Source: Hydrogenophilales bacterium (GTDB lineage Bacteria; Pseudomonadota; Gammaproteobacteria; Burkholderiales; Thiobacillaceae). Taken from it: a DNA stretch of 64,000 nt. The number at the start of each line of letters is the position of its first letter. Positions within the stretch are counted from its first letter, which is position 1. The notes below the pieces were generated by a model. The model had not been told where the DNA came from, did not search any database, and was given only the letters and a program-made list of their open reading frames with translations. Below, one piece after another: positions 34,035 through 57,243 of the stretch. The translations under genes and the position numbers were made by a program. Where the stretch lies: contig JAHFRD010000004.1 of NCBI GenBank assembly GCA_023258975.1, forward strand, positions 186,001 through 250,000, in the 5' to 3' direction.

Positions 34035-34110
34035 CAGCCCCCTTACTCGCTACGCTCGTTTCCCCCCGAGGGGGAGGTCAGTTCCTTCGGAACGGCCGTG
34101 CGGAACTGAC
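34035..34110. repeat. Structured dispersed repeat (element B), intergenic copy
   Basis: Read on the minus strand: a GTCAGTTCC...GGAACTGAC hairpin around a GGCCG core, then CCCCCTCGGGGGG and an AGCGTAGCGAG arm ending GGGGGC. The same architecture occurs at 35712-35793 and 55855-55937 inside genes, and half of it at 38693-38736. Confidence 0.75.
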
Positions 34111-34177
34111 ATGATGGCGCCGGCATCCGGTGGCCTGTCGGGCTGACGGCTGGCGCGCCACGGGGGGACGCCGGGAA

Positions 34178-35482
34178 GTGTTCTTGCAAGCTCATGTCGC
34201 CGCCTTCCTCCGCAGGCATCCTCCCGGCCGGCGGCTGAACATCGGTTTCTCGGGGGGGCTGGACTCCACGGTTCTTCTCCACCTGCTCGCCGGCCTGCGC
34301 GGCGAGTTCGGTTTCCACCTGGCCGCCGTGCACGTGCATCACGGACTTTCCCCGTTGGCCGATGCCTGGGTGGAACATTGCCGCCGGCAATGCGCCGAGT
34401 TGGAAGTTTCCTTACGGGTCGCGCATGTCGCGGTGAGCCGCGCCGGGCAGGGCCTCGAAGCCGCCGCGCGGGAAGCGCGCTACCGGGTGTTCGCCGGGCT
34501 GGAGGGCGATGCCCTGGCGCTGGCGCACCAGCGCGACGACCAGGCGGAAACCGTGCTGCTGCAACTGCTGCGCGGCGCCGGCATGAAGGGCCTGGCGGCC
34601 ATGCCGGAGGAGCGCGAACTCGGCTCCCTCAGGCTGTTGCGTCCGTTGCTCGATGTACCGCGCGCCGAGATCATGGCGTATGCCCGCGCGCGGGGATTGT
34701 CCTGGGTGGACGATGCAAGCAATGCCGATACCGCCTTGCGCCGCAACGCCACCCGCCACCTATTGATGCCGCTCCTGGAAAACCTGTTTCCGGGCGCGGC
34801 CAACACCCTGGCGCGGGCGGCGGCGCAATTCGCCGAGTGCGCCGACCTGCTCGATGCCCTGGCGCGCCAGGATGATCCGGACATCGCAACCGCCGAAGGG
34901 CTGGCGCTGGCGCGGCTGGCGGAACTCGACGCGGCGCGCGCGGGCAACCTGCTGCGCCACTACCTGCAATTGCGCGGCGTTCCCCTGCGCCGCGAACGCC
35001 TGCGTGAAGCCCTGGCGCAGATACTGGAGGCGCGCGCGGACGCGCAACCCGTGGTCGACTTCGGCGCCGCCTCGCTACGGCGTTTCCAGGGGCGCGTCGC
35101 GCTGGTGAAGAACGCCCCGGCGCCGCTCGCCCAGGCCTGGCATTGGCGCGGTGAAGCGGAACTGGACCTGGGGGCGGCCGGCGGCTTGAGCTTCACGCCG
35201 GTCAAGGGACGGGGCGTACGCTTGCCGGGCCAGGCGGTGGTGCGGCTGAGAACCGGCGGCGAGAAGCTTCGGCCGGCTACGGATAAGGAGGGGCGGCGAC
35301 CGGCGCGTACCCTGAAAAACCTGTTGCGCGAAGCCGAGGTGCCGCCCTGGTTGCGCGAGCGTCTGCCACTGATCTACGTGGAGGATCGCCTCGCCTGGGC
35401 GGCGGAAATCGGCGCGGACGCAGCGTTTCAGGCCGGCCCCGATGCGGCCGGTTGGCTCATTTCGTGGCGAAAGCCGGAGTAA
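34178..35482 (+). CDS. tilS: tRNA(Ile)-lysidine synthase
   Basis: TilS modifies C34 of the tRNA(Ile) CAU anticodon to lysidine. The 434-residue protein has the PP-loop SGGLDSTVLLHLL near its N-terminus, the HVHHGLSPLAD and HQRDDQAETVLLQLLRG motifs, and the C-terminal tRNA-binding region (GGEKLRPATDKEGRR, LREAEVPPWLRERLPLIY). The start is uncertain: GTG 34178 fits the family; the frame is open to GTG 34130. Its 3' end overlaps the convergent SPOR gene by 26 bases. Confidence 0.93.
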   Translation: MFLQAHVAAFLRRHPPGRRLNIGFSGGLDSTVLLHLLAGLRGEFGFHLAAVHVHHGLSPLADAWVEHCRRQCAELEVSLRVAHVAVSRAGQGLEAAAREARYRVFAGLEGDALALAHQRDDQAETVLLQLLRGAGMKGLAAMPEERELGSLRLLRPLLDVPRAEIMAYARARGLSWVDDASNADTALRRNATRHLLMPLLENLFPGAANTLARAAAQFAECADLLDALARQDDPDIATAEGLALARLAELDAARAGNLLRHYLQLRGVPLRRERLREALAQILEARADAQPVVDFGAASLRRFQGRVALVKNAPAPLAQAWHWRGEAELDLGAAGGLSFTPVKGRGVRLPGQAVVRLRTGGEKLRPATDKEGRRPARTLKNLLREAEVPPWLRERLPLIYVEDRLAWAAEIGADAAFQAGPDAAGWLISWRKPE

Positions 35483-36188
35483 CCAGGGCCTGCATTCCCA
35501 TCTTGCGCATTTCCGCCTGGGCCTTTTCCGCCTCCTCGCGGTTGGCGAACGGCCCCAGGTGCACGCGCGTTTCCATGTGGGCGCGGATGCCCTGCTTGTT
35601 CAGCTTGCTGACCAGTTCGCGGGCGCGTTCCGGATTGCTGAATACCGCCAGTTGCACCACGAAACGCTCGCCCAGGGGGGCGGCTTGCGTGGCGGCAGGC
35701 CGAGTCGGCACCGCTCCCGACTCGGAAAAGGCGCTCGCGCCGCCTCCCGAGGGGGCCAGGCCATTCCTGGGTTGGCCCGGCGAGTGGCTGGAGAGCGCAG
35801 CGCGCGGGATGGCGGCGGGAGCGCCCAAGATTTTCGGCGCATTGCTGACCTTGGGTGGCGGTGGCGGTTCCGGCGTTGTCGGCGGCTTTGCCGTGGCGGC
35901 CGGCGGTGGTTCGCCCCGTTCCTGGGTTGAAGCTTCCTTGGCGGCGGGCGCGGGTTCCTCCCCGGCGGTTCGAGGTGGCGCGATTTCCTGTGGGGGCGCG
36001 GTAACGATGGGGGAGGGCGGAGCCACCGAAACGGGCTTTTCCGGCTTCCTGGCGCCCTGATCGAGCCACCAAAGTCCGCCCAGCGCGGCTACCGTCACCA
36101 GGCCGGCCACCGTCAGGCGCATCAGCGCCCTGCGCCGCACATCCTCGTTCTCCGTCAAGCCTCCGACCGGGCCGTTTTCCACCGCCAT
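35457..36188 (-). CDS. SPOR-domain envelope protein
   Basis: A 243-residue protein: a cytoplasmic start, one membrane helix (about residues 24-42), a long Pro/Ala-rich linker and a C-terminal SPOR domain (about residues 174-240, [20 protein letters not shown], then [16 protein letters not shown]). SPOR domains bind denuded peptidoglycan at division sites. Residues 132-160 are encoded by a dispersed repeat and share SSHSxGxPxNxLAPxGGG with the FN3 protein at 55.3 kb. Confidence 0.9.
35712..35793. repeat. Element B copy inside the SPOR gene
   Basis: On the minus strand it runs from CTCCAGCCACTCGCCGGGCC to TCGGGAGCGG. It aligns base by base with 55855-55937, stays in frame and is read in the same frame as that copy. 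Confidence 0.8.
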
Positions 36189-36334
36189 TGCATCCTCCTC
36201 GCCGTGCCCCGGGGTGGCGCACCGCCTTTATTTTAGGGGGGTTTCATGGTAACTTCCGCGCGCTTTTTTCGCGTATTTTCAAAGCTTTCCCCTCTCCTTC
36301 AATAAACCTTCCCTTGTATCCGGAGTACCGCAAC

Positions 36335-36763
36335 ATGGCTGTTGAACGCACCCTGTCCATCATCAAACCCGACGCCGTCGCCAAGAATGTCATCGGCAAG
36401 ATCTATTCCCGTTTCGAGAGCAATGGCCTCAAGGTCATCGCCGCTCGCATGGCCTGGTTGTCCGCGCAGGAAGCCGGCGGTTTTTATGCCGTGCACAAGG
36501 AGCGTCCCTTTTACAAGGATCTGGTTGCTTTCATGACCTCCGGCCCGGTGATGATCCAGGTGCTGGAAGGCGACGACGCCATCGCCAAGAACCGTGAACT
36601 GATGGGCGCCACCGACCCCAAGAAAGCGGAAGCCGGCACCATCCGCGCCGACTTCGCCGACAGCATCGACGCCAACGCCGTGCATGGCTCCGACGGCCCC
36701 GACACCGCGAAAGTGGAAGTGGCCTATTTTTTCCCGGAATTGAACGTCTACTCCGGACGCTGA
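36335..36763 (+). CDS. ndk: Nucleoside diphosphate kinase
   Basis: A 142-residue kinase that balances (d)NTP pools. It begins [18 protein letters not shown], and the catalytic His lies in [15 protein letters not shown]. Full family length. ATG 36335 with CGGAG upstream. It is in the same frame as rlmN downstream. Confidence 0.98.
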
Positions 36764-36792
36764 TCCGAGGGGGCTGGCGCGGGAAACGCGCT

Positions 36793-36820
36793 TCACCCCT
36801 CACACCCGACGCCTCACCCC
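36793..36820. repeat. Heptamer array ending exactly at the rlmN start
   Basis: Four seven-base units: TCACCCC, TCACACC, CGACGCC, TCACCCC. The reverse complement (GGGGTGA units) is the same family as the array at 11561-11590. The last base of the array abuts the TTG start codon of rlmN. Confidence 0.75.
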
Positions 36821-37909
36821 TTGCAAAACCTGCTCGATCTCGACCTGCCCGGACTCGTCGCTTTCTTTGAAAGCCTCGGCGAGAAGCCGTTTCGCGCCCG
36901 TCAGGTAATGCACTGGCTGCACCAGTACGGTGCCGACGACTTCGGTCAGATGACCGATCTGGCCAAATCGTTGCGCGCCAGGTTGCCCGAGGTGGCCGAA
37001 ATTCGGCCACCGCTGCTGCACCAGGAGCAGGTGTCGGACGACGGCACGCGCAAATGGCTGCTGGAAGTCGGCCCGCTGAACCGGGTCGAGACGGTGTTCA
37101 TCCCGGAAGCCGAGCGCGGCACCCTGTGCGTCTCCACCCAGGTGGGCTGCGCGCTGGAATGCGCCTTCTGTTCGACCGGGCGGCAGGGCTTCAACCGCAA
37201 CCTGTCGGTGGCGGAAATCATCGGCCAGCTCTGGTGGGCCAACAAGGCGATGGGGCGCGACCCGAAAGGGGATCGTGTCATTTCCAACGTCGTGTTGATG
37301 GGCATGGGCGAGCCCCTGCTCAACTACGACAACACCGTGACCGCCGTGTCCCTGATGCTTGACGACCATGCCTATGGCCTGTCGAAGCGGCGCGTCACCA
37401 TCTCCACCTCCGGCATCGTGCCGGCGATGGATCGGCTGCGCGAGCGGATGCCGGTGGCCCTGGCGGTGTCGCTGCACGCGCCTAACGATGCGCTACGCGA
37501 CCAGTTGGTGCCGATCAACCGCAAATACCCCCTGAAGGAGCTGATGCCCGCCTGCCAGCGCTATGTTCAGGATGGTCCGCGCGACTTCATCACCTTCGAA
37601 TACGTCATGCTCGACGGCATCAATGACCGCCCCGAGCATGCCGAGCAGTTGCTGCATCTCACCCGCGACGTGAACTGCAAGTTCAATCTGATTCCCTTCA
37701 ATCCATTCCCCAACGCCGGCTTCCGCCGCTCGCCATCCGAGACGGTGCGCCGTTTCGCCAGCCAGCTCATGGGCGGCGGCAAGATCGCCACCACACGCAA
37801 GACGCGCGGCGACGATATCGACGCGGCTTGCGGCCAGTTGGCCGGCCAGGTCGAGGACAAGTCGCGGCGCGTGGCTTCCCGCATCGAGAAATTCATGGGG
37901 ATGGCATGA
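36821..37909 (+). CDS. rlmN: Dual-specificity 23S rRNA/tRNA adenine-C2 methyltransferase
   Basis: A 362-residue radical-SAM enzyme that methylates A2503 of 23S rRNA and A37 of some tRNAs. The N-terminal domain ([19 protein letters not shown]) precedes the radical-SAM motif CALECAFC (about residue 109) with [13 protein letters not shown]; the mechanistic Cys is in [10 protein letters not shown] near the C-terminus. TTG 36821 is the only plausible start: the frame runs back to the ndk stop without another start codon. No SD is visible. It overlaps pilF as ATGA. Confidence 0.95.
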
Positions 37910-38691
37910 AACGCGTCGCGCTCTTGCTGCTGTTCGGGCTCGCCGGCTGCGTGGCGCAGCCAACCACCACCACCGGCGGCCCGGAGGCGCGTTCCTCCAG
38001 CGTCGGCGATGTCGGCGCCCAGGTGCATACCGAATTGGCCGCCAACTATTTCCTGCGCGCGCAGCACGCCGTGGCCCTGCAGGAACTGGCGGAAGCGATC
38101 AAGTCCGATTCCGGCTACGCGCCGGCCTACAACATGCTCGGCCTGGTGCATGGCGAACTGCGCGAGGATCAACGCGCGGAAGAGGATTTCCGCCGCGCCA
38201 TCGCGCTTTCGCCGCAGTTCTCCGAGGCACACAACAACTTCGGTTCGTTCCTTTGCCAGCGCAAGCGCATGAAGGAAGCGCGCGAGCATTACGAAACGGC
38301 GCTGGCCAACCCGCTCTACGCCTCGCCCGAGAAGGCTCTCAGCAATGCCGGGGCGTGCAGCCTGGAACAGGGCGACCTGGCGGCGGCGGAAATGTATTTC
38401 CTGCGCGCCATCCGGCGCGCGCCGAATCATGCCTCCGCCCAGTTGGGCATGGCTGAAGTCCACTTTCGCCAGGGCCGCTGGCTGGCTGCGCGCGCGGTGT
38501 TGCGGCAGCTCACCGAACAGGCCGAAGTCAGCCCGCAGGCGCTCTGGCTGGGGGTGCGCGTCGAGCGCCGCCTGGGGGATCGCGAGGCGGAAGCCAACTA
38601 TGGCGCCCAGTTGCGTCGGCGCTACCCAGAATCCATGCAAACCCAATGGCTGATTACCAGCCAATTCGAGCAGATGGGGAGTCTGTTATGA
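37906..38691 (+). CDS. pilF: Type IV pilus assembly lipoprotein PilF/PilW (TPR)
   Basis: A 261-residue outer-membrane lipoprotein needed for PilQ secretin assembly. Lipobox LFGLAGC (Cys15), then about six TPR repeats ([40 protein letters not shown], and so on). The rlmN-pilF-rodZ-ispG-hisS order is conserved among proteobacteria. Overlaps rodZ as ATGA. Confidence 0.93.
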
Positions 38692-39614
38692 GTGCCCCCG
38701 AAAAATCCGCTTCGCGGCTTTCTCCCCCCGAGGGCGCGGTATCGCCGGTTTTTCACCCGGGGTTCGGTGAGAAGCTCAGGCTCGCGCGTGAAGCGCTTGG
38801 GCTGACGCCCGCTGAAGTGGCCGCCAAGCTCAAACTCGGCGCCCGCCAGATCGAAGCGCTGGAAGCGGAAGATCTGGCGCACCTGCCGGGTGATGTGTTC
38901 ACGCGCGGTTTTGTCCGCAATTACGCGCGCCTGGTGCGAATCGACCCGGAGCAACTGATCGTGCCGGTGGACATCAACGCCGCCGTCGCGGAAACCATTA
39001 CCGCGCCCAGTGAAGGTGTGATCTTCTCCTCGCCCGGCTTGCGCCGCTGGGTGCTGTTGCCCATGTTGGCGCTGGGTTTCTTCGTGGTATTGGTGGCCGT
39101 GCTGTATTACTGGCTGCGCCAGGGTGAGAACGCGCTGCTCGGCGCGCCGGTCGCGCCACCGACCGTATTGGTCCCCGCCGCGCCGCCCGCGCCGATTCCC
39201 GTCGCCCCGCCAGCGCTTCCTCCGGCCGCCGCGCCGGAACCCGCGATGCCCGCCGAAGTCGGCCCCGGCGCCACGCCCGCATCCACGCCTGTGCCTCCAT
39301 CGGCGCCGGCTCCCGCCGCGCAGCCGGCGCCACCCGTGCCCACGCAGCCCGCGAGCCAGGCGGCGCCCGCCGCCGGCAAGAACCACACCTTGCGTTTCGT
39401 CCCGGGTCTGGATGCCTGGATTCAAGTGGTGGACGGCCAGGGCAAGCGTTATTCCAAACTGGTGCGCGCCGGTAGCGCCGAGACCTTTGACGGCGAGGCG
39501 CCGTTCAGGCTGGTGGTGGGCGAAGCGGCGCAGGTGAAACTGAGCTACGACGGCCATCACATCGACCTCACCCCCTTCATCGGGCAGAAGGTTGCCCGCT
39601 TGACTTTGGAATGA
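38688..39614 (+). CDS. rodZ: RodZ-like HTH transmembrane protein
   Basis: A 308-residue cell-shape protein. A helix-turn-helix domain (about residues 27-95, [20 protein letters not shown] and [14 protein letters not shown]) is followed by one membrane helix (about 121-143), a Pro/Ala linker and a C-terminal DUF4115 beta domain ([19 protein letters not shown]). The first dozen or so codons ([16 protein letters not shown]) come from half of a dispersed repeat, so the N-terminal tail is not family-like. ATG 38688 overlaps the pilF stop. Confidence 0.9.
38693..38736. repeat. Element B half-copy at the 5' end of rodZ
   Basis: On the minus strand CGCCCTCGGGGGGAGAAAG and then GCGAAGCGGATTTTTC match the CCCCCTCGGGGGG-AAACGAGCG half of the copy at 34035-34110. 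Read on the plus strand it codes for the start of RodZ. Confidence 0.6.
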
Positions 39615-40843
39615 CCATGCGCCAGACAATCGTGCGCCGCCCCACGCGGCGCGTCATGGTGGGCCACGTGGCGGTAGGTGGCGGCGCGCCGGTGGTGGTG
39701 CAGTCCATGACCAATACCGACACCGCCGATGTCGCCGCCAGCGTTGCTCAGGTTCACGAACTCTGGCGGGCGGGTTCCGAAGTGGTGCGCCTCACCGTCA
39801 ACACCGAGGAGGCCGCGCGCGGCATCGTCGCCATCCGTGAAAAACTCGACGCGATGGGCTGCGACGTGCCGCTGGTCGGCGATTTCCATTTCAACGGCCA
39901 CCGCCTGGTCAAGGCTGTGCCCGAATGCGTGCCGGCGCTCGCCAAGTTGCGCATCAACCCCGGCAACGTCGGGCGCGGTTCCAGGAAGGAAGAACAGTTC
40001 GCCACCCTGGTGGAAGCCGCCGCGCGTCACGGCAAGGCCGTGCGGATCGGTGTCAACTGGGGCAGCCTGGATCAGGAATTGCTGGCGCGCATGATGGACG
40101 GGAACGCGCAACGCGCCGAACCGCACGATCCGGAACAGGTAATGCGCGACGCGCTCATCGTCTCCGCTCTGGAATCCGCCGCCCGCGCCGAAGCCCTGGG
40201 CCTGCCGGGCGACCGCATCATCCTGTCGTGCAAGCTGTCCGGCGTGCAGGATCTGATCCAGGTCTACCGTGACCTCGCCAGCCGCTGCGATTACGCCCTG
40301 CACCTGGGCCTCACCGAAGCCGGCATGGGCAGCAAGGGCATCGTCGCCTCCACGGCCGCGCTCGCCATCCTGCTGCAGGAAGGCATCGGCGACACCATCC
40401 GCGTCTCGCTGACGCCGCAACCGGGCGAATCGCGCACCACCGAAGTCCAGGTGGCCCAGGAAATCCTGCAAACCATCGGCCTGCGTTCCTTCACCCCCCT
40501 GGTCACCGCCTGCCCCGGCTGCGGCCGCACCACCAGCACGGTGTTTCAGGAACTGGCGCAAAAAATCCAGAATTGGCTGCGTAGCCAGATGCGGGTCTGG
40601 CGCGGCCGCTATCCCGGCGTCGAGACCATGAACGTGGCGGTGATGGGGTGCGTGGTCAACGGCCCCGGCGAGAGCAAGCACGCCAACGTCGGCATCAGCC
40701 TGCCCGGCACCGGCGAAGTACCGGTGGCCCCGGTCTACGTTGACGGCGAAAAGACCGTCACCCTCAAGGGCGAGCGCATCGCCGAGGAGTTTCAGGCCAT
40801 CGTCGAAGATTATGTGAAACGAACTTATGGAGGCGCTGAGTAG
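39611..40843 (+). CDS. ispG: 4-hydroxy-3-methylbut-2-enyl-diphosphate synthase (flavodoxin)
   Basis: A 410-residue [4Fe-4S] enzyme of the MEP isoprenoid pathway. It starts with the TIM-barrel ([14 protein letters not shown]) and ends with the cluster domain ([12 protein letters not shown], then [18 protein letters not shown]). Slightly longer than the E. coli enzyme. ATG 39611 overlaps rodZ as ATGA; ATG 39617 is possible. The stop lies inside a heptamer array. Confidence 0.97.
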
Positions 40844-40908
40844 CAAGTCGCGAGTCGCAAGTCGCAACCCGACCTTGCCGCTCGCCGCTGGCCACTCGCC
40901 ACTTGCCC
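40839..40908. repeat. Ten-unit heptamer array between ispG and hisS
   Basis: Seven-base units AGTAGCA, AGTCGCG, AGTCGCA, AGTCGCA, ACCCGAC, CTTGCCG, CTCGCCG, CTGGCCA, CTCGCCA, CTTGCCC. The left four and right five are roughly inverted in sense. The array contains the ispG stop and ends four bases before the hisS ATG. Confidence 0.8.
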
Positions 40909-40912
40909 ACTG

Positions 40913-42175
40913 ATGAGCAACCACCTCCGTGCCGTGCGCGGCATGAACGACCTCCTGCCCGCGGATTCGCCGCTTTGGCAGTTTTTTGAGTCCACCCTGC
41001 GCGGCTGGCTGAAATCCTATGGCTATCGTGAATTGCGCACACCCATCCTGGAACACACCGGGCTGTTCAAGCGTGCCATCGGCGAGGTGACGGACATCGT
41101 CGAGAAGGAGATGTACACCTTTGTCGACGAACTCAACGGCGAGAGCATGACCCTGCGCCCGGAGGGCACCGCTTCCTGCGTGCGCGCGGCCATCGAACAC
41201 AACCTCCTGTTCGACGGCGGCAAGCGGCTCTGGTACGCCGGCCCCATGTTCCGCCACGAACGGCCGCAGAAAGGACGCTATCGCCAGTTCCACCAGTTCG
41301 GCATCGAAGCCCTGGGCTTCGCCGGGCCGGATCTGGACATCGAACACCTGCTGATGACCGCGCGCCTGTGGAAGTTGTTGGGGCTTTCCGACTGCATTCA
41401 CCTGGAAATCAACTCCCTGGGCGGCGCCGAATCGCGCGCCCGGCATCGGGAAAAGCTCATCGTCTATTTCCAGGCGCATGAAAGCGAACTGGACGAAGAC
41501 GCGAAACGCCGCCTGCACAGTAACCCGCTACGTATTCTCGACACCAAGAATCCGGCCATGCAGGCGTTGGTGGAAGCCGCGCCCAAGCTGATGGACGAAC
41601 TCGATGAAGCGGCGCTGGCGCATTTCGCGGCGGTGCGGCGGGGGCTCGACGACGCCGGCATCGGCTACAAGATCAACTCGCGCCTGGTGCGCGGCCTCGA
41701 TTACTACAACTACACGGTGTTCGAGTGGGTCACCGACCGCCTCGGCGCCCAGGGCACGGTCTGCGCCGGCGGCCGCTACGACGGTCTGGTGCAACAACTC
41801 GGCGGCAAGGCGGCGCCGGCCTGCGGCTATGCGATGGGCGTGGAACGCCTGTTGGCGCTGCTGCTCGATGCCGGAGTGGCGCCCCCCGCCGACGCGCCGG
41901 ATATCTACCTCGTCAACGTTGGCGAGGCGGCCAGCCGTTTCGCGCCGCAAGCCGGCGAAGCCTTGCGCGACGCCGGTTTCGCCGTGGTGCTGCATGGCGG
42001 TGGCGGCAGTTTCAAATCACAAATGAAAAAGGCCGATGCCAGCGGCGCCCGTTACGCCATGATTATCGGCGACGACGAGGCCGTGGCCGGCGAAGTGACG
42101 ATCAAGCCCCTGCGTGGGGAAGGTGAACAACAGCGCGTCGCCCTGGCGGCGGCGGCGGATCTCTTGAAAGGGTAA
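40913..42175 (+). CDS. hisS: Histidyl-tRNA synthetase
   Basis: A 420-residue class II synthetase. Class II motif 2 is visible ([20 protein letters not shown]), as are the histidine-binding loop [13 protein letters not shown] and motif 3 ([14 protein letters not shown]); a C-terminal anticodon-binding domain follows. ATG 40913 directly follows the heptamer array, with no obvious SD. Confidence 0.97.
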
Positions 42176-42178
42176 ACA

Positions 42179-42808
42179 ATGGCATTCGATCTGGAAGAAC
42201 AGGAACAAATCGACGAGTTCAAGGTGTGGTGGAAACTGCACGGCATGAAGGTCATTCTGGGCGTGACCGCTTTTCTGGTGATCGTCGGTGGCTGGCGCGC
42301 CTGGGAAACCTGGCGGCGCAACCAGGCGGCCGAAGCCTCCATGCTGTTCGACACGGCGATCCAGGCTGCGACGATGAACGACCTGAAAGCCACCAAGGAC
42401 GTCACCGCGCGGATCATGGAAAACCAGTCGCGCGGCGCCTACGCCACGCCCGCCGCCTGGCTGGCCGGCCGCGTCAACCACGAGAGCGGCGACTTGAAAA
42501 GCGCGCGCGCCCAATACGAATATGCCCTGGAGCACGCCCGCGACGATGGCCTCAAGCAACTCGCGCGCATGCGCCTGGCCGGCATCCGCTTCGAGGAAAA
42601 GGACTTCCCCGGCGCCCTGGCTCTCCTGAACGAAACCTTCTCGCCCGCTTTCCAGGGCCTGGCCGCACAACTCAAGGGCGACGTCCTGATCGAACAGGGC
42701 AAGACCGGGGAAGCGCGCGCCGCCTACAAGCTGGCGCTGGAAAAGCTCGACGACAAGAGTTCCCTGAAACCCCTGCTGGAAATCCGCCTGGATGCCCTGG
42801 GAGGCTGA
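42179..42808 (+). CDS. yfgM: YfgM-like tetratricopeptide membrane protein
   Basis: A 209-residue protein with a cytoplasmic N-terminus (FDLEEQEQIDEFKVWWKLHG), one membrane helix (about residues 20-40) and a periplasmic TPR-like domain. It is thought to assist Sec-dependent periplasmic proteins with PpiD. Position between hisS and bamB is the conserved one. ATG three bases after the hisS stop. Confidence 0.9.
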   Translation: MAFDLEEQEQIDEFKVWWKLHGMKVILGVTAFLVIVGGWRAWETWRRNQAAEASMLFDTAIQAATMNDLKATKDVTARIMENQSRGAYATPAAWLAGRVNHESGDLKSARAQYEYALEHARDDGLKQLARMRLAGIRFEEKDFPGALALLNETFSPAFQGLAAQLKGDVLIEQGKTGEARAAYKLALEKLDDKSSLKPLLEIRLDALGG

Positions 42809-42809
42809 T

Positions 42810-44363: not shown

Positions 44364-44365
44364 CC

Positions 44366-44662: not shown

Positions 44663-44691
44663 GCAGCCGTTTTTTCTTCAGGAGACGAGAC

Positions 44692-48451: not shown

Positions 48452-48478
48452 TTCAGACGTTTTGAGATGGAGTCAACG

Positions 48479-49645
48479 ATGAAGCGGGTTCTGATTGCCT
48501 TCGCCATTCTTCTGTCGCTGGCGGCGACCGGCGCACACGCGGCCATCGACGCGCTTGGTTCATCCGTTACGCCGGCCACGGTCTATGTCGCGTCCGATCA
48601 TGCGGGGGTGTTTACCGTGACCTGGCGGGTGCGAACCACCAGCGGCCCCAATGTATCTTCCAGTCAGGGTCAATTCCTGACGGGTGGCCGCGCGGGAGGA
48701 ACGCTGCTCGGCAGCGTGCCACTGGCGTTGAGCCAGGCCGCCGCCGCCGGGGCCACGGCCCTGATTACGGAAAGCGTGAATGTTCCGCTGGCGGTGATCC
48801 GGAAGGCGCTTGGCCTTGGCACGGGTGAAATCGTGTATCGCCGCTCCTATCGCGATGTCGGGGATGCGGTAATTCCGTTCGATGTTCGCGTCGTCATCAC
48901 CGGCGCCCAGGCCGCCGGCCTGAGCGCCACGCGCCAGTCCATCGCCTTCGACGACAACACCCCGGCGCGCATCGTCGCGCCCCGGCAACTGTTGAGCGCC
49001 TGGAGCGAAATCACCCTGTCCGGTACCGGCCTGGTGGAAGGCGTCTGGGAAATCGCCGAGCCGCCCTCGACCTCCGGGCAGGCGGTGTTCCATACCCTGC
49101 AAGTGGTGCGCCGCTTCGCCCAGAGCGACGCACCGTTGCGCCTGGACAGCCCGTCATTGCCCACCGCCGCGCCCGGCTTGTATCTGCTGCGCCTGCGCCT
49201 GACTCAGCCCTTGCCCGGCTTCGATTCCCCGGAGATCCGCTATTTCGTCGCCCAGCCCGGGGCCGCGCCGGTCGCGCGCGAGTTGCGGGTGCTTACGCCC
49301 GGCCCCGGCGCCTTGCTGGAGGATTCCACCCGCTTCGCCTGGGCGCCGCTGGAAGGCGTGCGATCCTGGCTGCTGTTGCTGCACGAGCGCCCGGCCGGGC
49401 TGGGCGGCAATCTGCCGGAACTGGGCGCAGCGCCGTTGCCCGATGCCGCCGAGTTCGCGCAGTTGGCGAAGTCCCCACCAGCAGCCGGCCTCGTGGTTCC
49501 CGGCAGCCAGACCGGCGCCAGTCTCTCCGTCGTGGCGCGTGCCCACCTGAAACCCGGCGCATCCTACCTCTGGCGGGTGCTGGGCCTGGGTGAGGATGGC
49601 GTGGTACTCGGTGAAAGTGCCTGGCGGGTGATTCGGGTTCCTTGA
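48479..49645 (+). CDS. Secreted Ig/FN3-like protein of unknown function
   Basis: A 388-residue exported protein: signal peptide (MKRVLIAFAILLSLAATGAH), an N-terminal beta region with VTPATVYVASDHAGVFTV, a middle region with EITLSGTGLVEGVWEI and a C-terminal FN3-like part (RFAWAPLEGVRSWLLLLHE ... YLWRVLGLGEDG). GGAG eight bases before ATG 48479 supports this start over 48467. It follows the barrel-like gene by 27 bases and probably shares its transcript. Unrecognised family. Confidence 0.7.
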   Translation: MKRVLIAFAILLSLAATGAHAAIDALGSSVTPATVYVASDHAGVFTVTWRVRTTSGPNVSSSQGQFLTGGRAGGTLLGSVPLALSQAAAAGATALITESVNVPLAVIRKALGLGTGEIVYRRSYRDVGDAVIPFDVRVVITGAQAAGLSATRQSIAFDDNTPARIVAPRQLLSAWSEITLSGTGLVEGVWEIAEPPSTSGQAVFHTLQVVRRFAQSDAPLRLDSPSLPTAAPGLYLLRLRLTQPLPGFDSPEIRYFVAQPGAAPVARELRVLTPGPGALLEDSTRFAWAPLEGVRSWLLLLHERPAGLGGNLPELGAAPLPDAAEFAQLAKSPPAAGLVVPGSQTGASLSVVARAHLKPGASYLWRVLGLGEDGVVLGESAWRVIRVP

Positions 49646-49683
49646 TGGCCAGCGATCATGCCGAAGCGATGCCGTTCCCGTTC

Positions 49684-49743
49684 CTGTAGCGCCGGCTTCC
49701 GGCCGGCCATTCCCAAGACGCCGGCTGGAAGCCAGCGCTACGG
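49684..49743. repeat. REP-like inverted pair (BIME-like)
   Basis: CTGTAGCGCCGGCTTCCGG with GCCGGC, a 12-base spacer, then GCCGGCTGGAAGCCAGCGCT ending ACGG: two inverted copies of the same palindrome between the 388-residue and 1830-residue protein genes. Confidence 0.8.
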
Positions 49744-49780
49744 GGGTGTGCGCACGTCCTTTTCCGCAAGGAGATAAAGC

Positions 49781-52700
49781 ATGCCGCGAGCAACGATGGC
49801 CTGGATACGGTTCTTTCCGGATTCGCGCCGCTTGTGTTGTCTGGCCTTGCTGTTGGCACCGTTTTTTGCTCAGGCGTCCAGCCCCTTCGCGGGCGACATG
49901 ACGGATGGCGGCGCCTCGGATGCCGTCGCCGCGCCGGCGTCGAAGCGGGGTGGATTTTCGCCAGCCACCGACAGGGTGATCGTTCCGGCCGCCTCGGATG
50001 GCCTGAGCGCGCCCGCCACGCGCGCGCCCGGCGCGCTCAAGCCGTTGCAGCCGCCCACCCTGATGGCGCCGCGTGTGCTGGGCATGTATCCCAACGAACT
50101 GGCGCAGGGCACCAGCTATAGCGTCACCCTGTCCGGTGAGAACCTGAACCCGACCCTGAAGCCCGATTTCGGAGCCGGCATTCTGGTGAAGGGCGCGCCG
50201 CAGCTTCTTTACGGCGGCAAGCTGAAGGTATCCATCGACGTGCTGCCGTTCGCACTGCCGGGCAAGCGCAATCTGGGGATCGCCGCCCCCTTCGGCGCGG
50301 CGGTGGAGCAGATCGTGGAGTTCCAGGTGGTCCAGCAGGCGCCCAAGGCCGCGCCGCCGAAGGCCACCCTGGTGAAGCTGCCGGAAGCCGATCTGGACAA
50401 GGTATTCAAGGGAAAAATCGTGCTCGACGCCCCGCCCTGGTGCAAACAGATCGCCAGCCAGGCGCCGCCCAAGGGGCCGGACGGCAAGCCGCTGGGACAG
50501 CCGACACCGATCTACCAGGAGCTGCATCCCACCCTGGACGACAGCCTGTTGTTCCTCTGGCACGAACAGAACAAGGGCCTGGCCGAGCGTTTCGAGATTC
50601 GCTTCCATATTCATGACAAGTTGCTGGCGAAACGCGACATGGCGGTGCCCACCGGTTCCGGCTGGGGTTCGATTCCGCATTACCGGCCGGATGCCGCCCT
50701 GATCGGCGAACTGTTCCAGGCGCTGAAGCTGCCGGCGCAGACCGGGCAAGCCGGCGCTGGAAAATATTCCCTGGACGCGGCCAAGGCCAAGCTGGCGGCG
50801 GGTGTGTCGGGTAGCGCCGAGGGTGGACTCGGGCCAGCCCAGGCCAAGGCCGACATTACCTGGGAAGTGGCCGGATTTCGGGAGTACGCCAAGAGCGGCG
50901 TGGCCAAGAGCGCGCTGGCCGATCTTCCCGACGCGCCGCCGGTTCGCCTGGCGGCGGGGTTCGCGCCGAAAGCGAATCCCGCGTCAGACGCCCCCCCGGC
51001 GCAGGCGGCTTACAGCCAGTACGCCAAGCCGGAACTGGTCGACGTCGAGGTGGAGCTCTCCGAGCGTTGGCCGCTTTATCTGCCCGATGCACCCACCGGC
51101 CTGGGCTGTCCTTCCGCCGTATCGGGCGGGCTTTCCGTGCACAACCTCGACTCCGCCACCCAGAACGGCAAATTGGCCGGTGCTTCCGGTTTCACCTACG
51201 ACCGCTTCCGCATCCAGGGCCAGCTCAATCTGGGCACAAGCCCCTACGCCGCCCATGTGGACAAGACCCAGACCAGCACCCCGGATACGCAGACCACGGT
51301 TTCCACCGGCTTCGGCGGCAGCGTGACTCTGGGTTCGCCGTCGCAGGTGCTGTTCACTACCTGGCGCTTCGACAACGTGTTCGTGGACTGGGGCGACGGC
51401 ACCCAGGAGCCCCTGGCCGCCATGCTCGGCGGGGACGCCGGCGACTATGATCGCGGTGACGCGGTGAACCTGGACAATTCCGCCATCCAGTACGTCCATG
51501 TCTATGCCGGCCCCGGCCAGTACATCGTGCGTCTGTTCCAGTTGGGCGAAGATGACATCCAGGGGGGCGGCCAGCAGGTGGCGGCGCAATCCGCCGATCT
51601 CGGCAATCCGGGCGCTTTCAGCCTCTACAACGCCGCCCTGAATCTGGCGGGTGGCAGCCAGGTCCAGGCGGCTCAGGCGGAGGCGAAATACGGGCAGGCA
51701 GTGGCCAAGCGCGCCTACATGCTGTTTTGCCAGCCGCTTTCCATCCAGCACCGTAGCGACCCCGCCGCCAACGGCCCGCTCAAACTGGTGGACATCGCGG
51801 TCGAGGGCGTGGCCACCGGTAACGAAGTGCCCAAGGCCGGCGCCGTGAAGGCCGGAAAAATCGTCGCCAAGCCACAATCGAAGGGCGTCGCGAACGTCGG
51901 TGGCGGTGGTGGCGTGGTTTCGTTCGCCAAGCAGGATACCGGCGCGTTGACGCTGGAGAAGGCCAAGCTGAATTTCAATGCCCTGGCCATGCTCGGCGGC
52001 ATGCCGGCCTACTCGACCTGCGACTACCAGCTCACTCCCTACGGCTTGCTGCATTACACCGGCCAGGGCGAGGTGCGCACGCGCTGGTATGTGGACGGCA
52101 TGGCCTTGCCGGCCGACGCGCCGCGCCCGGTGGGGCCGTCTCAGGCGCGCCCGGATTCCATGTTGAAGAACCCTCCCAATACCTGGGGGCCGCCGTTGGT
52201 GAGCGGGATCAACCTGCCGGCGCAAAGCCCGGTCGGCCTGGAAAAACTCGGTGTGCATGAATTGCGCGTGGAAGCCGAGGCCCTGCCCGACAGCGTGCAT
52301 CTGTTCGGCATGGTCGCGGCGGCGCTGGGCGGTGATGCGGGCGCCCAGGCGGGCTTGTCGAATGCCGCGAAAATGGGCGCCCTGCCGAAGCTGGGGGTGC
52401 TGGCGGGGCCCAAGGTGCCTGTCCAGGGCAAACCCGGCGGCGGGCCGGGGCCGGTGCTGAACCTGATGTTCAACCGGGGCTTCGATGACACGGCACCACT
52501 GAAACTGGCGGCGGCCGGCAAGAATTACGATTACGCGCCGGCCAAGACGGTCAGCGACCTGCCCAAGGTGGACACCACGCCGCTGGCGAAGAATCCCCCG
52601 GTCTGGGCGGTGTCGGAACCGCAGCCGTACCTGGTGGTCGGCAGCGATCCCGCGCAGCCCTGCACTTTCGACTTTCCGGTGGCGGATGGCTTGTTCAAGG

Positions 52701-55273
52701 TGGTCGGCCTGCAAGCGCCCGGCGGCAAGCCCAAGGTGACGCGCCAGGGCGATCGTTTCAGCGGCCAGGGCGATCTGCTGGTGCCGATTCCCGGCGGCGG
52801 CAAGCAGAAGGCGCCGTTCACCTTCTCCAACTGGAAAGTGGCGGAGGATGGCGTCGCCGTGCTGGAAGGCGAGTTCAGCATCACCGATCCCGGCCTGCCG
52901 GAACTGCAGATGCCCGCCGTGAAAGGCCGTTTCACCCGCCTCGACGGCGTCGCCGGCAAGCAGGTGGAGGCCTGGCTGGACGCGCGCCTGACCAATGCCG
53001 CCTTGGTGGAATCGGCCTCCGCCAGCCAGGTGCCGCGCTGGAAGGGCGTCAAGGCCACGCTGTCTCCGGAGGGCGACTGGTATGCCTCCGGTCTGGCGAT
53101 GCCGGAATTCCTGGTCTACGACAGCGGCTTCCGGATCAAGCCGCAGGCCGTGACGCTCGACCTTTCCGCCAAGCAGGGTGGCGCGCCGGCCAGCCAGTGC
53201 AATGGCGCTGGCAATGCCTGGCGTGGCGTCGCCCTGGGCAAGTCCGACCTGCTGTTCTTCAATTTCGACCTGCCCGGCCCGGCGCCGAAAGCCTCGGTGT
53301 CCGACTGGGGCATCGATGCCGATGGTCTCTGCGGCAAGGCCGCCAGCGGCGCGGAAAGCCATGACTGGCTACGCGGCAAGATCGGCTGGAAAGGCGTCGA
53401 GGCGCAAGCCTGGAACGGCATCTTCAAGGCCACCTACGACGACCTCTGGGTCTACGTGCCCTGGCTCGACAGCAAACTGAGCGGCGCTGGCGATCCGGTG
53501 CTCCTGGCCGGCAAGGGCCAGGCGCAGGGTGGCATCAGCCTGGTGCTCAAGGGGCAGCCGAAAACGCTCAAGCACGGCCCGGTGACGCTGCGGGTCGACA
53601 ACCTGGCGTTCACCAAGACCCCGCTCGGCTCCGGCGCCAATCCCCCCTCGCTGCCCGCCGCCAGCGCCGATGCCTGTTTCGACTTCCAGGGGGAATCCCA
53701 GGTGTTCGCCAAGGACGTGTGTGTTTCCGGCCTCCATTTCGCCCTCGATGGCCGCGCCTACTTCGCCGGCGCTTCCAGCAAATCGGTCAGCCTGGCCGGC
53801 AAGAGCGGCAAGCTGGCGCAGGGCACGGTCAGCCTGAAGGAGGTGAACATCGGCGCCGGCGGCGGTGGCGGCCAGCGTTTGGGCTTCGATTTCCTCGCCG
53901 ACCTGAAGATTTCCCAGGCACTGCCCGCCGTGCCGGTGCCGGTGTCGTATCAGGTGAAGGAGCCCGCCACCAATCAGTACACCGGCAGCGGCCCTTATAC
54001 CGGCAGCTTCGAGGTGAAATTCGCTTCGCCCCTGGTGAAGGCCACGATCAAGCCCGTCTATGCCGGGCCCAAGGACGGCACCAGTGTCGCTTCCAATCCG
54101 GTGCTGCTGGCGCTGGCCGATCTCGGCTACGCCAGCGATGCTCCGCTCATGGTCGCCCTGGGTGGCGGCGACACGATCGTGTTCAAGGGCGATGTCGATC
54201 TCACCCAGTTCCAGGCGCCGGTGCCGCTGCATGGCGTGTTCCTGCTGGGTTACCACGGCGACACCGATTTCTGGGCGACCAAGTTCACCTGGTCCCTGCC
54301 CTCCGGCGTCGTGCTGGTACCCGGTGTGTTGAGCCTGTACGAATTCGGCGGTGGCCTCGGTTACCACGTCACCCGCGATTCCCTGGTCGGAGGCAGCCTC
54401 GACTTTGTCGAATTCAGTGCCGCCTCAGTTCCGGTGCTGAACGCCAGCGCGCGCGTCGGCACGGTCGATACCGGCTTCATCTTCTCGGCGCGCGGCGATC
54501 TGAACATCAAGCCGGGCGGCGGCGATGCCGGCGTGGACATGGTGTTCACCGCCTGGCTGCTGACCAACGATCACGGCGGCGGCGGGCCGATTTCGGGAAC
54601 CCTGGGCTACGGCGGCGGCGCGTTCACCGGCACGATGGGCGGCAAGTGGGGGCCGCCGGGCCTGGCCGACCGCATCTATGTGGAAGCCGATCCCACCGCC
54701 ATCGGTTTCTCCGTCGGCGGCGGCGACTGGTATTTCAAGGCCGGCAGCAAGGCCAATCCGATCACCGGCTACTTCTTCGTCGCCAGCGGCCAGGCCTGGT
54801 TCGATCTCAACAGTTCCGGCGGCCTGCATGTCGGCGCCAAGGCCCATGCCCGCTTCCCGGACATCCAGTGCGATGGCGGCACCTGCGCCTATGTCGACGG
54901 TGAAGTGGGCGTGGAAAGCGGTGTGCAACTCAGCCCGATCCAGATCGACGCGAAGGGCGGCGCCCAGGTCACCGCCAAGGGGTGTCTGGCCGGGGCGTGC
55001 GCGTCACTCAACGAATCCGTCAGCGTTTACGCGGCGGCGCCCAATCCGCTCAAGCTCGGCTTCGGCTACAGCCTGAGCGCCTGCCCCGTCGGCAAGCTCA
55101 ATGTCAGCCTGCAAGTGCTGCCCGGCGTCGATCCCGGCATCAGCGCCGACCTGTGCTCCTTCGGCGAGATCGGCGGCGCCATCGCTTCCGGAGTTTCCGA
55201 CGCCTGGGACGCGGCCACCGGTGCCGCCGAGGATGCCTACGATGCCGTCACTTCCTGCTTCGGACTCTGCTGA
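49781..55273 (+). CDS. Giant secreted protein, 1830 residues, IPT- and PKD-like domains
   Basis: One uninterrupted frame with AAGGAG nine bases before the ATG. It has a signal peptide (about residues 1-32), then an IPT/TIG-like domain near residues 100-185 (LGMYPNELAQGTSYSVTLSG). A PKD-like motif (VFVDWGDGTQEPL) lies near residue 540. Long beta-rich, Gly-rich stretches follow to near residue 1780. Cys are few. The C-terminus has an amphipathic helix (SDAWDAATGAAEDAYDA) and ends CFGLC. No known catalytic motif is visible. It is probably an extracellular or surface-attached structural protein. The family is not recognised. Confidence 0.8.
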   Translation: MPRATMAWIRFFPDSRRLCCLALLLAPFFAQASSPFAGDMTDGGASDAVAAPASKRGGFSPATDRVIVPAASDGLSAPATRAPGALKPLQPPTLMAPRVLGMYPNELAQGTSYSVTLSGENLNPTLKPDFGAGILVKGAPQLLYGGKLKVSIDVLPFALPGKRNLGIAAPFGAAVEQIVEFQVVQQAPKAAPPKATLVKLPEADLDKVFKGKIVLDAPPWCKQIASQAPPKGPDGKPLGQPTPIYQELHPTLDDSLLFLWHEQNKGLAERFEIRFHIHDKLLAKRDMAVPTGSGWGSIPHYRPDAALIGELFQALKLPAQTGQAGAGKYSLDAAKAKLAAGVSGSAEGGLGPAQAKADITWEVAGFREYAKSGVAKSALADLPDAPPVRLAAGFAPKANPASDAPPAQAAYSQYAKPELVDVEVELSERWPLYLPDAPTGLGCPSAVSGGLSVHNLDSATQNGKLAGASGFTYDRFRIQGQLNLGTSPYAAHVDKTQTSTPDTQTTVSTGFGGSVTLGSPSQVLFTTWRFDNVFVDWGDGTQEPLAAMLGGDAGDYDRGDAVNLDNSAIQYVHVYAGPGQYIVRLFQLGEDDIQGGGQQVAAQSADLGNPGAFSLYNAALNLAGGSQVQAAQAEAKYGQAVAKRAYMLFCQPLSIQHRSDPAANGPLKLVDIAVEGVATGNEVPKAGAVKAGKIVAKPQSKGVANVGGGGGVVSFAKQDTGALTLEKAKLNFNALAMLGGMPAYSTCDYQLTPYGLLHYTGQGEVRTRWYVDGMALPADAPRPVGPSQARPDSMLKNPPNTWGPPLVSGINLPAQSPVGLEKLGVHELRVEAEALPDSVHLFGMVAAALGGDAGAQAGLSNAAKMGALPKLGVLAGPKVPVQGKPGGGPGPVLNLMFNRGFDDTAPLKLAAAGKNYDYAPAKTVSDLPKVDTTPLAKNPPVWAVSEPQPYLVVGSDPAQPCTFDFPVADGLFKVVGLQAPGGKPKVTRQGDRFSGQGDLLVPIPGGGKQKAPFTFSNWKVAEDGVAVLEGEFSITDPGLPELQMPAVKGRFTRLDGVAGKQVEAWLDARLTNAALVESASASQVPRWKGVKATLSPEGDWYASGLAMPEFLVYDSGFRIKPQAVTLDLSAKQGGAPASQCNGAGNAWRGVALGKSDLLFFNFDLPGPAPKASVSDWGIDADGLCGKAASGAESHDWLRGKIGWKGVEAQAWNGIFKATYDDLWVYVPWLDSKLSGAGDPVLLAGKGQAQGGISLVLKGQPKTLKHGPVTLRVDNLAFTKTPLGSGANPPSLPAASADACFDFQGESQVFAKDVCVSGLHFALDGRAYFAGASSKSVSLAGKSGKLAQGTVSLKEVNIGAGGGGGQRLGFDFLADLKISQALPAVPVPVSYQVKEPATNQYTGSGPYTGSFEVKFASPLVKATIKPVYAGPKDGTSVASNPVLLALADLGYASDAPLMVALGGGDTIVFKGDVDLTQFQAPVPLHGVFLLGYHGDTDFWATKFTWSLPSGVVLVPGVLSLYEFGGGLGYHVTRDSLVGGSLDFVEFSAASVPVLNASARVGTVDTGFIFSARGDLNIKPGGGDAGVDMVFTAWLLTNDHGGGGPISGTLGYGGGAFTGTMGGKWGPPGLADRIYVEADPTAIGFSVGGGDWYFKAGSKANPITGYFFVASGQAWFDLNSSGGLHVGAKAHARFPDIQCDGGTCAYVDGEVGVESGVQLSPIQIDAKGGAQVTAKGCLAGACASLNESVSVYAAAPNPLKLGFGYSLSACPVGKLNVSLQVLPGVDPGISADLCSFGEIGGAIASGVSDAWDAATGAAEDAYDAVTSCFGLC

Positions 55274-55275
55274 CC

Positions 55276-57243
55276 ATGCGCCGCCTGCTCCCGCTCCTCC
55301 TTCTGCTCTGCCCTCTGCTGGCGTTTGCCGCCGCGCCCACAGCCAGGCCCGGCGACAAGGTCGTCACTCGCGTCTGGTCCGCCGGCGACGGCCAGGGCGG
55401 TGTTCGCCTGCTCTGGTTCGTGCCGCCGCAACGTTGGGGCCACGGCTGGCGGGTCGAGGACGATAGCGGCCGCGTCCTCGCCCGGCGCATCGTTCCCGCC
55501 ACGGATTTCGACGCGGGCAAGCAGGGCGGCGCCATCGTGCTCGGGATGAAGGCCATGTCGGATTGGGATTTCGCGCGTTCCGCCGGCCTCGCGGTCGAAC
55601 TCCAGGATTTGCCGCCGCGCCGTACCGGCTTCGTCCTGCGCCGCCTGGACGCGCGCGGCGAGCCCGACGGCGCCTGGCTCAAGACCACGCCCATCGACCT
55701 GGCGAGCGCCGCGCCGCCGCCACGCCCGCCCAAGGATTTGAGTGCCGAGGCCACGGCGGCGGGCGTCAAGTTGTACTGGCGGCCCAATCCCGGCCTCATG
55801 CCGCTCCTGGCCTATACGGTGGCGCGCGACGATGGCCGCGCCGGCACGCAGCTCTCAAGTCATTCGTCGGGCCGCCCCAAGAATGACTTGGCCCCCACGG
55901 GGGGCGGCTCGGACGCTTTTGCCGAGCTGGGGGCACAGCTGACCCGGCAACCCGTGGTGCTGGGCAACGATTGGGCGGCGGCGGGCGCCGCGTTCATCGA
56001 CCTCCAGGCGCCGACGGAAACCGAGGTCGTCTATCAGGTGCGCGGCATCGACCTCCTGGGCCGGGTATCGGCGCCGGTCGTGGCGCGCGTGTTCGTGCCC
56101 GATTTCACCGCGCTGAACCCGCCGCGCGGGCTCCAGGCGGATTCCGTCAAGACCCCGGTGCGGCTGCGCTGGCTGGCCAACGCCAGCGTGAATACCCAAG
56201 GCTATCTGGTGGAACGCGCTTTCCAGACCGCCGGCCCCTGGGAAGTGTTGAACCCGAGAGGCGGCCGACCGACCGAATACACAGACCGCGAAGCCCAGCC
56301 CGGTTCCACCCTGTTCTACCGCCTGCGCGCCATCGACCCGCGCGGCGACGTCGGCGAACCGGGCCTGCCGCTGCCGGTGAACGCGCGCGGCGAACCGCCC
56401 GCCGCGCCCCGGGGACTCGCCGCCGAAGTCGGCAACAGCCGGGTACGTTTGGTCTGGCGGGCGGCGGCCGGCGCCGCCGCCTACCATGTCGAACGCCGCG
56501 CCGGCGAGGCGAGCGCCTGGAGCCGCCTCACCACCACGCCCACCCCGGAAACCCGCTACGACGACGTCTACGGCGGCAGCCCCGGTGGCCGTTTCGAATA
56601 CCGCGTCTACGCGGTCGCCCCGGACGAACAGACCGGTGAAGCGAGCGCGGCTCTGAGCGTGGCCCTGCCCGACACCGTGCCGCCGCCGCCGCCGCAGGTC
56701 ACCGCCACTTCCGGCGAGAACGGCCGCGTCCGCCTCGCCTTCCGCGCCGCCGCGCCGGCCGAGGACACGGTCGCCGTGCTGGTGCTGCGTGGCGCCGACG
56801 CCGAAGACCCCGGCCTGGTGATCGGCGACCCGGTTCCCGTGGCGCGGGGTGAATTCATCGACACCTGGGTCGATGCCGGAAAAAACTACGTCTACCGTCT
56901 GGTCGCGCTGGACGCCGCCGGCAATCGCGGCGACCCCGGCCCGGCGGTGAAAGTGCGCGTCGGAGCGCCGCCGCTGGGTGTGCCGGAGCGGCCCGAGGCG
57001 CGCTATCTGGCGGAACCCTTCCCGCATGTGAAACTGACCTTCACCGCCCCGCCCCGAGGTCTCGCCGTCCTGGTCGAGGCGGGTGAGGGCGACCGCTGGC
57101 GCTCCGCCGCCGGCCCGGTGGCGGGCAATGAGGCGATCGACCTCGCGCCGCGCCGTGGCGCCGGTCGCTACCGGCTGCGCTATCAATCGGCCAACGGCGG
57201 CGTCAGCGAGGCTTCGGCGGAAGTGGGCGTCCACATTCCCTGA
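55276..57243 (+). CDS. Secreted multi-FN3-domain protein with in-frame repeat insertion
   Basis: A 655-residue exported protein: signal peptide (MRRLLPLLLLLCPLLAFA), an N-terminal beta region, then about four fibronectin-III-like domains (for example PPRGLQADSVKTPVRLRWL and PPAAPRGLAAEVGNSRVRLV). Residues about 194-221 are encoded by element B and read SSHSSGRPKNDLAP then TGGGSDAFAELGA, interrupting an FN3 strand-loop region. ATG 55276 lies two bases after the giant gene's stop. Likely an extracellular partner of the giant protein; no enzymatic motif seen. Confidence 0.8.
   Translation: MRRLLPLLLLLCPLLAFAAAPTARPGDKVVTRVWSAGDGQGGVRLLWFVPPQRWGHGWRVEDDSGRVLARRIVPATDFDAGKQGGAIVLGMKAMSDWDFARSAGLAVELQDLPPRRTGFVLRRLDARGEPDGAWLKTTPIDLASAAPPPRPPKDLSAEATAAGVKLYWRPNPGLMPLLAYTVARDDGRAGTQLSSHSSGRPKNDLAPTGGGSDAFAELGAQLTRQPVVLGNDWAAAGAAFIDLQAPTETEVVYQVRGIDLLGRVSAPVVARVFVPDFTALNPPRGLQADSVKTPVRLRWLANASVNTQGYLVERAFQTAGPWEVLNPRGGRPTEYTDREAQPGSTLFYRLRAIDPRGDVGEPGLPLPVNARGEPPAAPRGLAAEVGNSRVRLVWRAAAGAAAYHVERRAGEASAWSRLTTTPTPETRYDDVYGGSPGGRFEYRVYAVAPDEQTGEASAALSVALPDTVPPPPPQVTATSGENGRVRLAFRAAAPAEDTVAVLVLRGADAEDPGLVIGDPVPVARGEFIDTWVDAGKNYVYRLVALDAAGNRGDPGPAVKVRVGAPPLGVPERPEARYLAEPFPHVKLTFTAPPRGLAVLVEAGEGDRWRSAAGPVAGNEAIDLAPRRGAGRYRLRYQSANGGVSEASAEVGVHIP
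55855..55937. repeat. Element B copy inside the FN3 gene
   Basis: AAGTCATTCGTCGGGCCG through GAATGACTTGGCCCCCACGG to GCCGAGCTGGGGGCAC. The GTCATTC/GAATGAC hairpin is followed by the CCCCC-ACGG-GGGG palindrome. It aligns with the SPOR-gene copy in the same frame. Confidence 0.85.

Follow-up and report, generated by a model that had tools for sequence, protein, structure and literature searches.

A palindromic element family of Burkholderiales that lies in frame inside conserved genes and often as a coupled mini-ORF between genes

We analyze a short palindromic DNA repeat in a 64,000-nucleotide stretch (hereafter, the window) of contig JAHFRD010000004.1, positions 186,001 to 250,000, from a Hydrogenophilales bacterium of the Thiobacillaceae (GCA_023258975.1). 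The element belongs to a repeat family with a covarying structure. It is placed in frame inside protein genes with a bias in the frame used, several of its insertion sites are empty in close relatives, and between genes it carries a small open reading frame (mini-ORF) that often begins at the stop of one gene and ends at the start of the next. Probably, the repeat represents a family of non-autonomous mobile palindromic elements that occurs across Burkholderiales, has expanded in one Thiobacillaceae-like genus, and persists as its insertions stay translatable. An earlier description of the window from its letters alone (the sequence-only reading) had reported the element between two genes and in frame in two unrelated exported proteins, and had proposed a genome-wide search for more copies.

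That search, performed with a covariance model (R1), shows that further copies exist. R1 was trained on 17 copies of this genome, including the two window copies inside genes (a SPOR-domain gene and an FN3-like gene) and excluding the window copy between accA and tilS. Scanning the 3.63-Mb genome at E <= 1 gave at least 57 matches, a count that may be low because 150 of 2198 first-look candidates were scored; they include all three full window copies, where the sequence-only reading had placed them. Merging two split matches leaves 55 copies. As a background control, 974,512 bases from 50 of 80 loci of named relatives, every one around accA, contained no R1 match at E <= 0.01. Judged by AccA, the named relatives closest to this genome include Thiobacillaceae and Parasulfuritortus records, with an unclassified betaproteobacterium closest of all, hence the term Thiobacillaceae-like. 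We also collected 60 loci from congeners, 10 around murE-murF and 50 picked among the best-scoring R1 matches, a sample that is biased to strong copies and has one locus (G050) from another genus. It holds 60 copies at E <= 0.001, 42 of which overlap a called gene, though for L326, L337, and L321 at least that gene is short and doubtful.

The element measures 80-90 bp and has three segments: stem 1 with a CGGGCCGnCCC loop, then CCCCC-nC-GGGGGG, then an arm ending in GGGGG. Across 57 aligned copies (53 distinct), 90.2% of the 642 cells of stem 1 and the inner stem pair, and two-sided changes are seen at 12 of the 13 pairs. Such changes occupy 198 cells, compared to 69.7 (sd 6.7) in shuffles, and none of 500 shuffles reaches the observed value; since the copies are related and the alignment was fitted to this structure, the figure overstates independence, yet it reflects a large effect. 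Pairing in stem 1 drops to 23-48% when the partner is slid by 1-3 columns. Folded as single-stranded DNA, the FN3-like copy reaches a z of -4.4, the accA-tilS copy -1.9 and the SPOR copy -0.3, and some copies have thus decayed. Movement of the element may be pictured as that of folded DNA handled by an enzyme. Two ideas about insertion were rejected. The MurD copy had raised the possibility that the 5' strand of stem 1 is copied from the target, but other copies in MurD, MurE, and MurF share a TGCCCGnC stem whatever the target, and stem 1 therefore marks subfamilies. A CAGCT target duplication at the FN3-like site was likewise dropped, as the right end CAGCTAAC recurs in other copies and is for that reason probably element sequence.

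Genes host a substantial part of the family. Nineteen of the 55 copies overlap a called gene (one of them weak: C32, E 0.5), so that the two exported proteins of the sequence-only reading, both of which do hold copies, were too narrow a description. Fourteen copies are interior: in AcnA, at the murE-murF junction, and in MurD, PheS (a partial copy), a DapC-like aminotransferase, an APH-family kinase, BtuF, BtuD, a hybrid histidine kinase, CutA1, an RND transporter, a UbiH-like FAD monooxygenase, and the SPOR and FN3-like proteins. Four are terminal, at the N-terminus of FliI and at the C-termini of MurF, an MMPL protein, and a protein without a Pfam match. Pfam backs the families of the host proteins; the names DapC, BtuF, BtuD, UbiH, and FliI are putative and come from our reading of the sequences. 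Nine of the 14 interior copies lie within or split a Pfam domain, and all six proteins aligned to solved chains show a gap at the insert. For MurD (409/432), CutA1 (49/79), the aminotransferase (125/151), and BtuD (173/197), the flanks map to abutting or overlapping chain residues, and for PheS and AcnA the gap falls inside a single alignment. The inserts are probably placed in surface loops. In this genome (L105:1577-4585), murE and murF form one open frame of 1002 codons joined through the element, with the purine-rich stretch and GTG ahead of murF retained; they are separate overlapping genes in the nine congeners that have both (10 congener loci given).

Within genes, the choice of frame is biased. 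The two sets together hold 51 fam1 copies with a length of 82 or 79; the 34 in genes are read 22 times in E+ fr2, seven times in E- fr2, four times in E+ fr0, and once in E- fr1, where E+ and E- denote the strands of the element and fr the frame. E+ fr1 is never used though it is open in 96% of copies; E- fr0, also unused, has stops in 84%. The two preferred frames show the highest mean disorder propensity of their own strand (0.297 for E+ fr2 and 0.371 for E- fr2), and E+ fr2, though not E- fr2, is also the most hydrophilic. More generally, in-gene copies lack stops in most frames and mostly keep the frame by their length, and their peptides are Pro/Gly/Ser-rich and disorder-prone. The shared orientation and codon phase of the SPOR and FN3-like copies are confirmed. 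We infer that the inserts are translated, and they are likely to be tolerated rather than beneficial.

Comparison with congeners, which the sequence-only reading had also proposed, reveals filled and empty sites among close relatives for MurD, SPOR, and the FN3-like gene. MurD carries 27 extra residues here that none of the aligned congeners has at this position (unrelated additional residues occupy the site in one genus of another family), and three congeners (G017, G005, G011) have copies in the opposite orientation elsewhere in MurD, the first two of which are also R1 matches. In a search of 41 genomes, this genome (G000) had a single MurD match, so that the interrupted gene is probably its only one. 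The SPOR insert is absent from the orthologues of six congeners and of locus L189; the FN3-like gene exists in three of 23 genomes of the genus, and the other two (G020, G011) lack the insert. The accA-tilS junction could be read in 22 genomes; by inspection, G000 alone shows this copy, and a different palindromic repeat occupies the junction in G017. From the empty SPOR, FN3-like, and MurD sites and the other MurD copies, it follows that the element moved during the history of the genus. Some insertions, judged by flanking peptides, are shared (one between G006 and G020, another between G020 and G018, and the UbiH copy between G000 and G020), and therefore inserts can outlast speciation.

MurD of six congeners (G013, G014, G004, G007, G005, G012) also contains unrelated-looking repeat-like peptides (AESLAALPLYESGVP, SQEGRR..AAE, PHPNPPPGGEG), one of them in tandem in G014, and the gene looks like a collecting ground for several insert types. 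The TilS match is broken around query residues 295-316 in G018, G020, and G006, possibly by another insert.

Outside called genes, the element takes a second form. Twenty-four copies lie there in 16 runs, and each is followed by a gene on the strand opposite to the element. On that gene strand usually runs a mini-ORF of about 25-29 codons (26-28 in intact copies; some decayed copies read on to 52-55), with the pattern M-K/N-x-P-P/H-x-x-x-R-S-F/L/P-P-P-E/G-G. In 11 of the 16 runs its ATG falls between -4 and +1 relative to the upstream stop, in 11 its final stop falls in that range relative to the downstream start, and in seven both ends are coupled. As a control, we took 70 element-free spacers of 50-260 nt from the same stretches: a bridging ORF coupled at both ends exists in eight of them (Fisher p 0.006 against the runs), and a start codon at the upstream stop in 26 (p 0.027). 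In some diverged copies, a shifted start is accompanied by a compensating indel (by inspection, MKQPPYSLRS versus MNSPHAHIRS, MINPHAPYRS, and MKNPHAHIRS), which fits selection on the mini-ORF. Ribosomes would pass through the mini-ORF by coupling.

The family extends well beyond the genus. With 39 candidates scored per genome and a cut-off of E <= 0.001, 42 of the family's 117 genomes have an R1 match; they come from 10 of its 12 genera and include 20 of the genus's 23 genomes. In the order, where the cut-off was E <= 1e-5 and 11 candidates were scored for each genome, matches occur in 42 of 399 genomes and 27 of 159 genera. We inspected 13 loci outside this genome: nine copies are intergenic, all between codirectional genes, and four overlap a gene end. 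A fam3 copy used as query against plasmids hit 13 records (Burkholderia 5, Paraburkholderia 4, Variovorax 3, Azoarcus 1), in every one of which the copy lies between codirectional genes in the same orientation. Coupling is found upstream in 11 of the 13, downstream in 10, and on both sides in eight; eight of the records have no annotation in the stretch, and gene ends there come from our own gene calling. Four of the 13 records, three from Paraburkholderia and one from B. multivorans (the latter by similarity only), have the sdhB-sdhE junction in common and hence are not independent. In two Paraburkholderia records, the copy is joined in frame to SdhE, and for one of these the annotation shows the fusion. 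A peptide search of plasmids and phages and a DNA search of phages gave no match.

A scheme can be drawn from the two forms. In genes, open frames and a frame-keeping length would yield disorder-prone peptides that surface loops can carry; at junctions, a mini-ORF with its own ATG and stop would often keep the stop-start coupling between neighboring genes; and a junction copy that loses its stop would become an N-terminal extension, as of SdhE in Paraburkholderia and probably of RodZ here. It is possible, and we propose it tentatively, that this is mobile DNA adapted to translated sequence: the junction form may be a transposable mini-cistron that lands at stop-start junctions with its own coupled start and stop, leaving the downstream gene unsilenced and turning into an N-terminal extension upon stop loss, and its sister form a disordered loop inside essential enzymes. 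The cases would then line up as possible stages in the conversion of a repeat to protein (mini-cistron, N-terminal extension, internal insert, gene fusion) and would suggest insertion without polar effect as a route for mobile DNA to spread between neighboring genes. Filled and empty sites for the same conserved enzymes within one genus make the cost of insertion directly measurable.

Several findings weigh against a mobile, translation-compatible element. No moving enzyme was identified (apart from the AcnA copy, the four Y1_Tnp genes have no copy within ~3 kb), and two genomes, G021 and G010, have at least 19 and at least 17 copies without a Y1_Tnp match. The element has no terminal inverted repeat (end complementarity 3.6 versus 4.0 in shuffled ends), target duplication is not clear (shared flank k-mer 2.94 for own versus 2.70 for swapped flanks, a weak difference), and folding of the SPOR copy does not exceed that of shuffles. 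Related copies, moreover, do not count as independent. Frame-compatible lengths, found in 36 of 37 copies in genes and 15 of 21 intergenic ones (Fisher p 0.007), make for a partly circular test, as an open frame is what lets a gene be called in the first place. Coupling at junctions, though enriched, also occurs without the element (eight of the 70 spacers above). Five of the 16 runs lack it upstream and five downstream (the accA-tilS copy among the latter), the chain is broken in one of the seven doubly coupled runs, a divergent gene is called upstream of two runs, and one plasmid copy is frame-broken.

The first alternative is that the repeat is a composite repetitive extragenic palindromic (REP) sequence moved in trans, as single-stranded hairpins, by REP-associated tyrosine transposases (RAYTs; Y1 HUH). 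The covariation of the hairpin and the tandem arrays in which copies occur would suit it, and across 23 genomes Y1_Tnp counts correlate with copy counts, themselves lower bounds (Spearman 0.48, p 0.02). However, unfiltered R1 around the four Y1_Tnp genes of this genome found only chance-level matches within ~3 kb, save the AcnA copy ~3 kb away. Near the foot of stem 1 in 115 copies, the tag GTAG occurs 0 times and CGTC 8 times (reverse complements: CTAC 1, GACG 4), and the copy-rich G021 and G010 have their reverse in G014 and G003, with 4 and 2 Y1_Tnp matches and no copies among the scored candidates. Linkage to a RAYT was looked for and not found, and the alternative as a whole appears somewhat unlikely.

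The repeat could also be a host-selected RNA device (an attenuator, RNase site, or coupling regulator) that spread for its usefulness, the in-gene copies being accidental. The uniform orientation of the plasmid copies, the codirectional neighbors of the nine intergenic copies outside this genome, and the recurrence at sdhB-sdhE in Paraburkholderia and B. multivorans favor such a role. Against it, no Rfam 15 family matches the window at its gathering score (of the two hits at E <= 1 in 15 further loci, the one lying over a copy, P11, falls far short of its cut-off), occupancy of a given junction is patchy, as at accA-tilS, and no functional theme was noticed among the host genes, by eye and without a formal test. 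We regard this role as unlikely. That in-gene copies are removed or skipped after transcription, by ribosome bypass or RNA excision, with the protein made without the insert, is very improbable: the hairpin and the insertions inside conserved domains would agree with it, but skipping would require neither that frames stay open nor that frame choice be biased by peptide character, and both are observed. Finally, the location of the SPOR copy in a Pro-rich linker might suggest that the shared peptides are ancestral or convergent low-complexity linkers and not DNA insertions, which is hardly credible given the same DNA architecture in intergenic copies and on both strands, the use of more than one frame, and the empty sites in congeners that contradict it.

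A mobile element persisting in translated sequence has precedents. The sequence-only reading compared the repeat to the protein-coding palindromic elements of Rickettsia (RPEs), "but in a betaproteobacterium", a class to which Thauera also belongs. In the portions of PMC10969869 and PMC2229807 drawn on here, RPEs are ~100-150 bp and lie in frame in conserved genes as well as between genes, and protein-coding palindromic repeats of Wolbachia appear through citation; the likeness is that of a palindromic repeat in frame inside protein genes and also between them. The comparison holds for behavior (many copies, empty sites, inserts in conserved enzymes), but it is one of description, not sequence, and identity with RPEs is unsupported: the element here is shorter, has a covarying stem 1 and a coupled junction mini-ORF, and lacks a counterpart to the 12-bp terminal inverted repeats listed in a table of PMC2229807. 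The host group does differ from Rickettsia, but intragenic REP stretches have already been reported in Thauera (PMC3733652, in part). That source describes GTAG and CGTC REPs of O. terrae, Thauera, R. conorii, and others as short palindromes within the coding parts of known genes; the present element has no GTAG, no consistent CGTC, 80-90 bp in three segments, and no linked RAYT. Miniature inverted-repeat transposable elements (MITEs) with ORFs, such as Coxiella QMITE1/2, enterobacterial RU/ERIC, and the neisserial 107-bp element, can add in-frame peptides, according to passages of PMC5896051 and PMC2229807; they are likewise small and non-autonomous, but ours has no terminal inverted repeat above shuffles and no clear target duplication. 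Overlapping stop-start pairs with translational coupling (PMC6728339, in part) share the ATGA and stop+1 spacing of the junction ends, but here the coupled cistron is itself a repeated element. The kind is thus already known: in the portions of these sources used, in-frame insertion of palindromic repeats is established in Rickettsia, cited for Wolbachia, reported for REPs of several species, and an occasional property of QMITEs; we did not find the family, its covarying stem, its one-genus scale, or above all the coupled mini-cistron in the open-licence literature, most subscription journals being outside our scope.

The features of the window are collected below.

Table 1. Copies of the element and associated features in the window
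Feature	Position	Strand	Remark
Junction-type copy between accA and tilS: hairpin 1 GTCAGTTCC/GGAACTGAC, CCCCCTCGGGGGG, GAGC arm	34037-34113	-	R1 48.9 bits
Mini-ORF at accA-tilS, MKQPPYSLRSFPPEGEVSSFGTAVRN then stop	34029-34109	+	Opposite strand of the element, same strand as the genes
In-gene copy, SPOR-domain gene (35457-36188, -), 27-residue peptide	35712-35793	-	R1 74.2 bits
Probable truncated junction copy, rodZ 5' end (38688-39614), 19-residue peptide	38693-38736	+	Weak R1, alignment
In-gene copy, FN3-like gene (55276-57243, +), peptide SSHSSGRPKNDLAPTGGGSDAFAELGA	55854-55935	+	R1 92.8 bits

The sequence-only reading had seen the accA-tilS copy but missed its mini-ORF on the gene strand, whose ATG lies one base past the accA TAG and whose TGA is followed by C and ATG. 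As tilS is called 68 bases beyond the end of the mini-ORF, this copy is coupled on one side only. Under R1, the half-copy proposed at the 5' end of rodZ does not reach significance (4.8 bits; E 0.16 for 501 bases). Aligned locally to a copy from a congener, however, it scores 42, and the best of 2000 dinucleotide shuffles reaches 34; the gene upstream (37906-38691) overlaps the rodZ ATG by 4 bases. The "FN3" label of the sequence-only reading finds no backing, as Pfam gives no family at E <= 0.001 for that gene. Its insert amounts to 29 residues (87 bp), and an AlphaFold model of the protein alone was too poor to place it (mean pLDDT 39.5) and was not used.

Two further observations concern sequences next to or within copies. 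Beside one copy, at L044:1665-1764 and outside the element, Rfam places V_AS9, a Vibrio antisense RNA, at 51.9 against a 50-bit cut-off. Two in-gene copies (L099:3021-3126 and L106:2966-3071) contain a second repeat, about TACCGAAGGGTAGGGGCTTTATCAG, nested between the palindrome and the arm.

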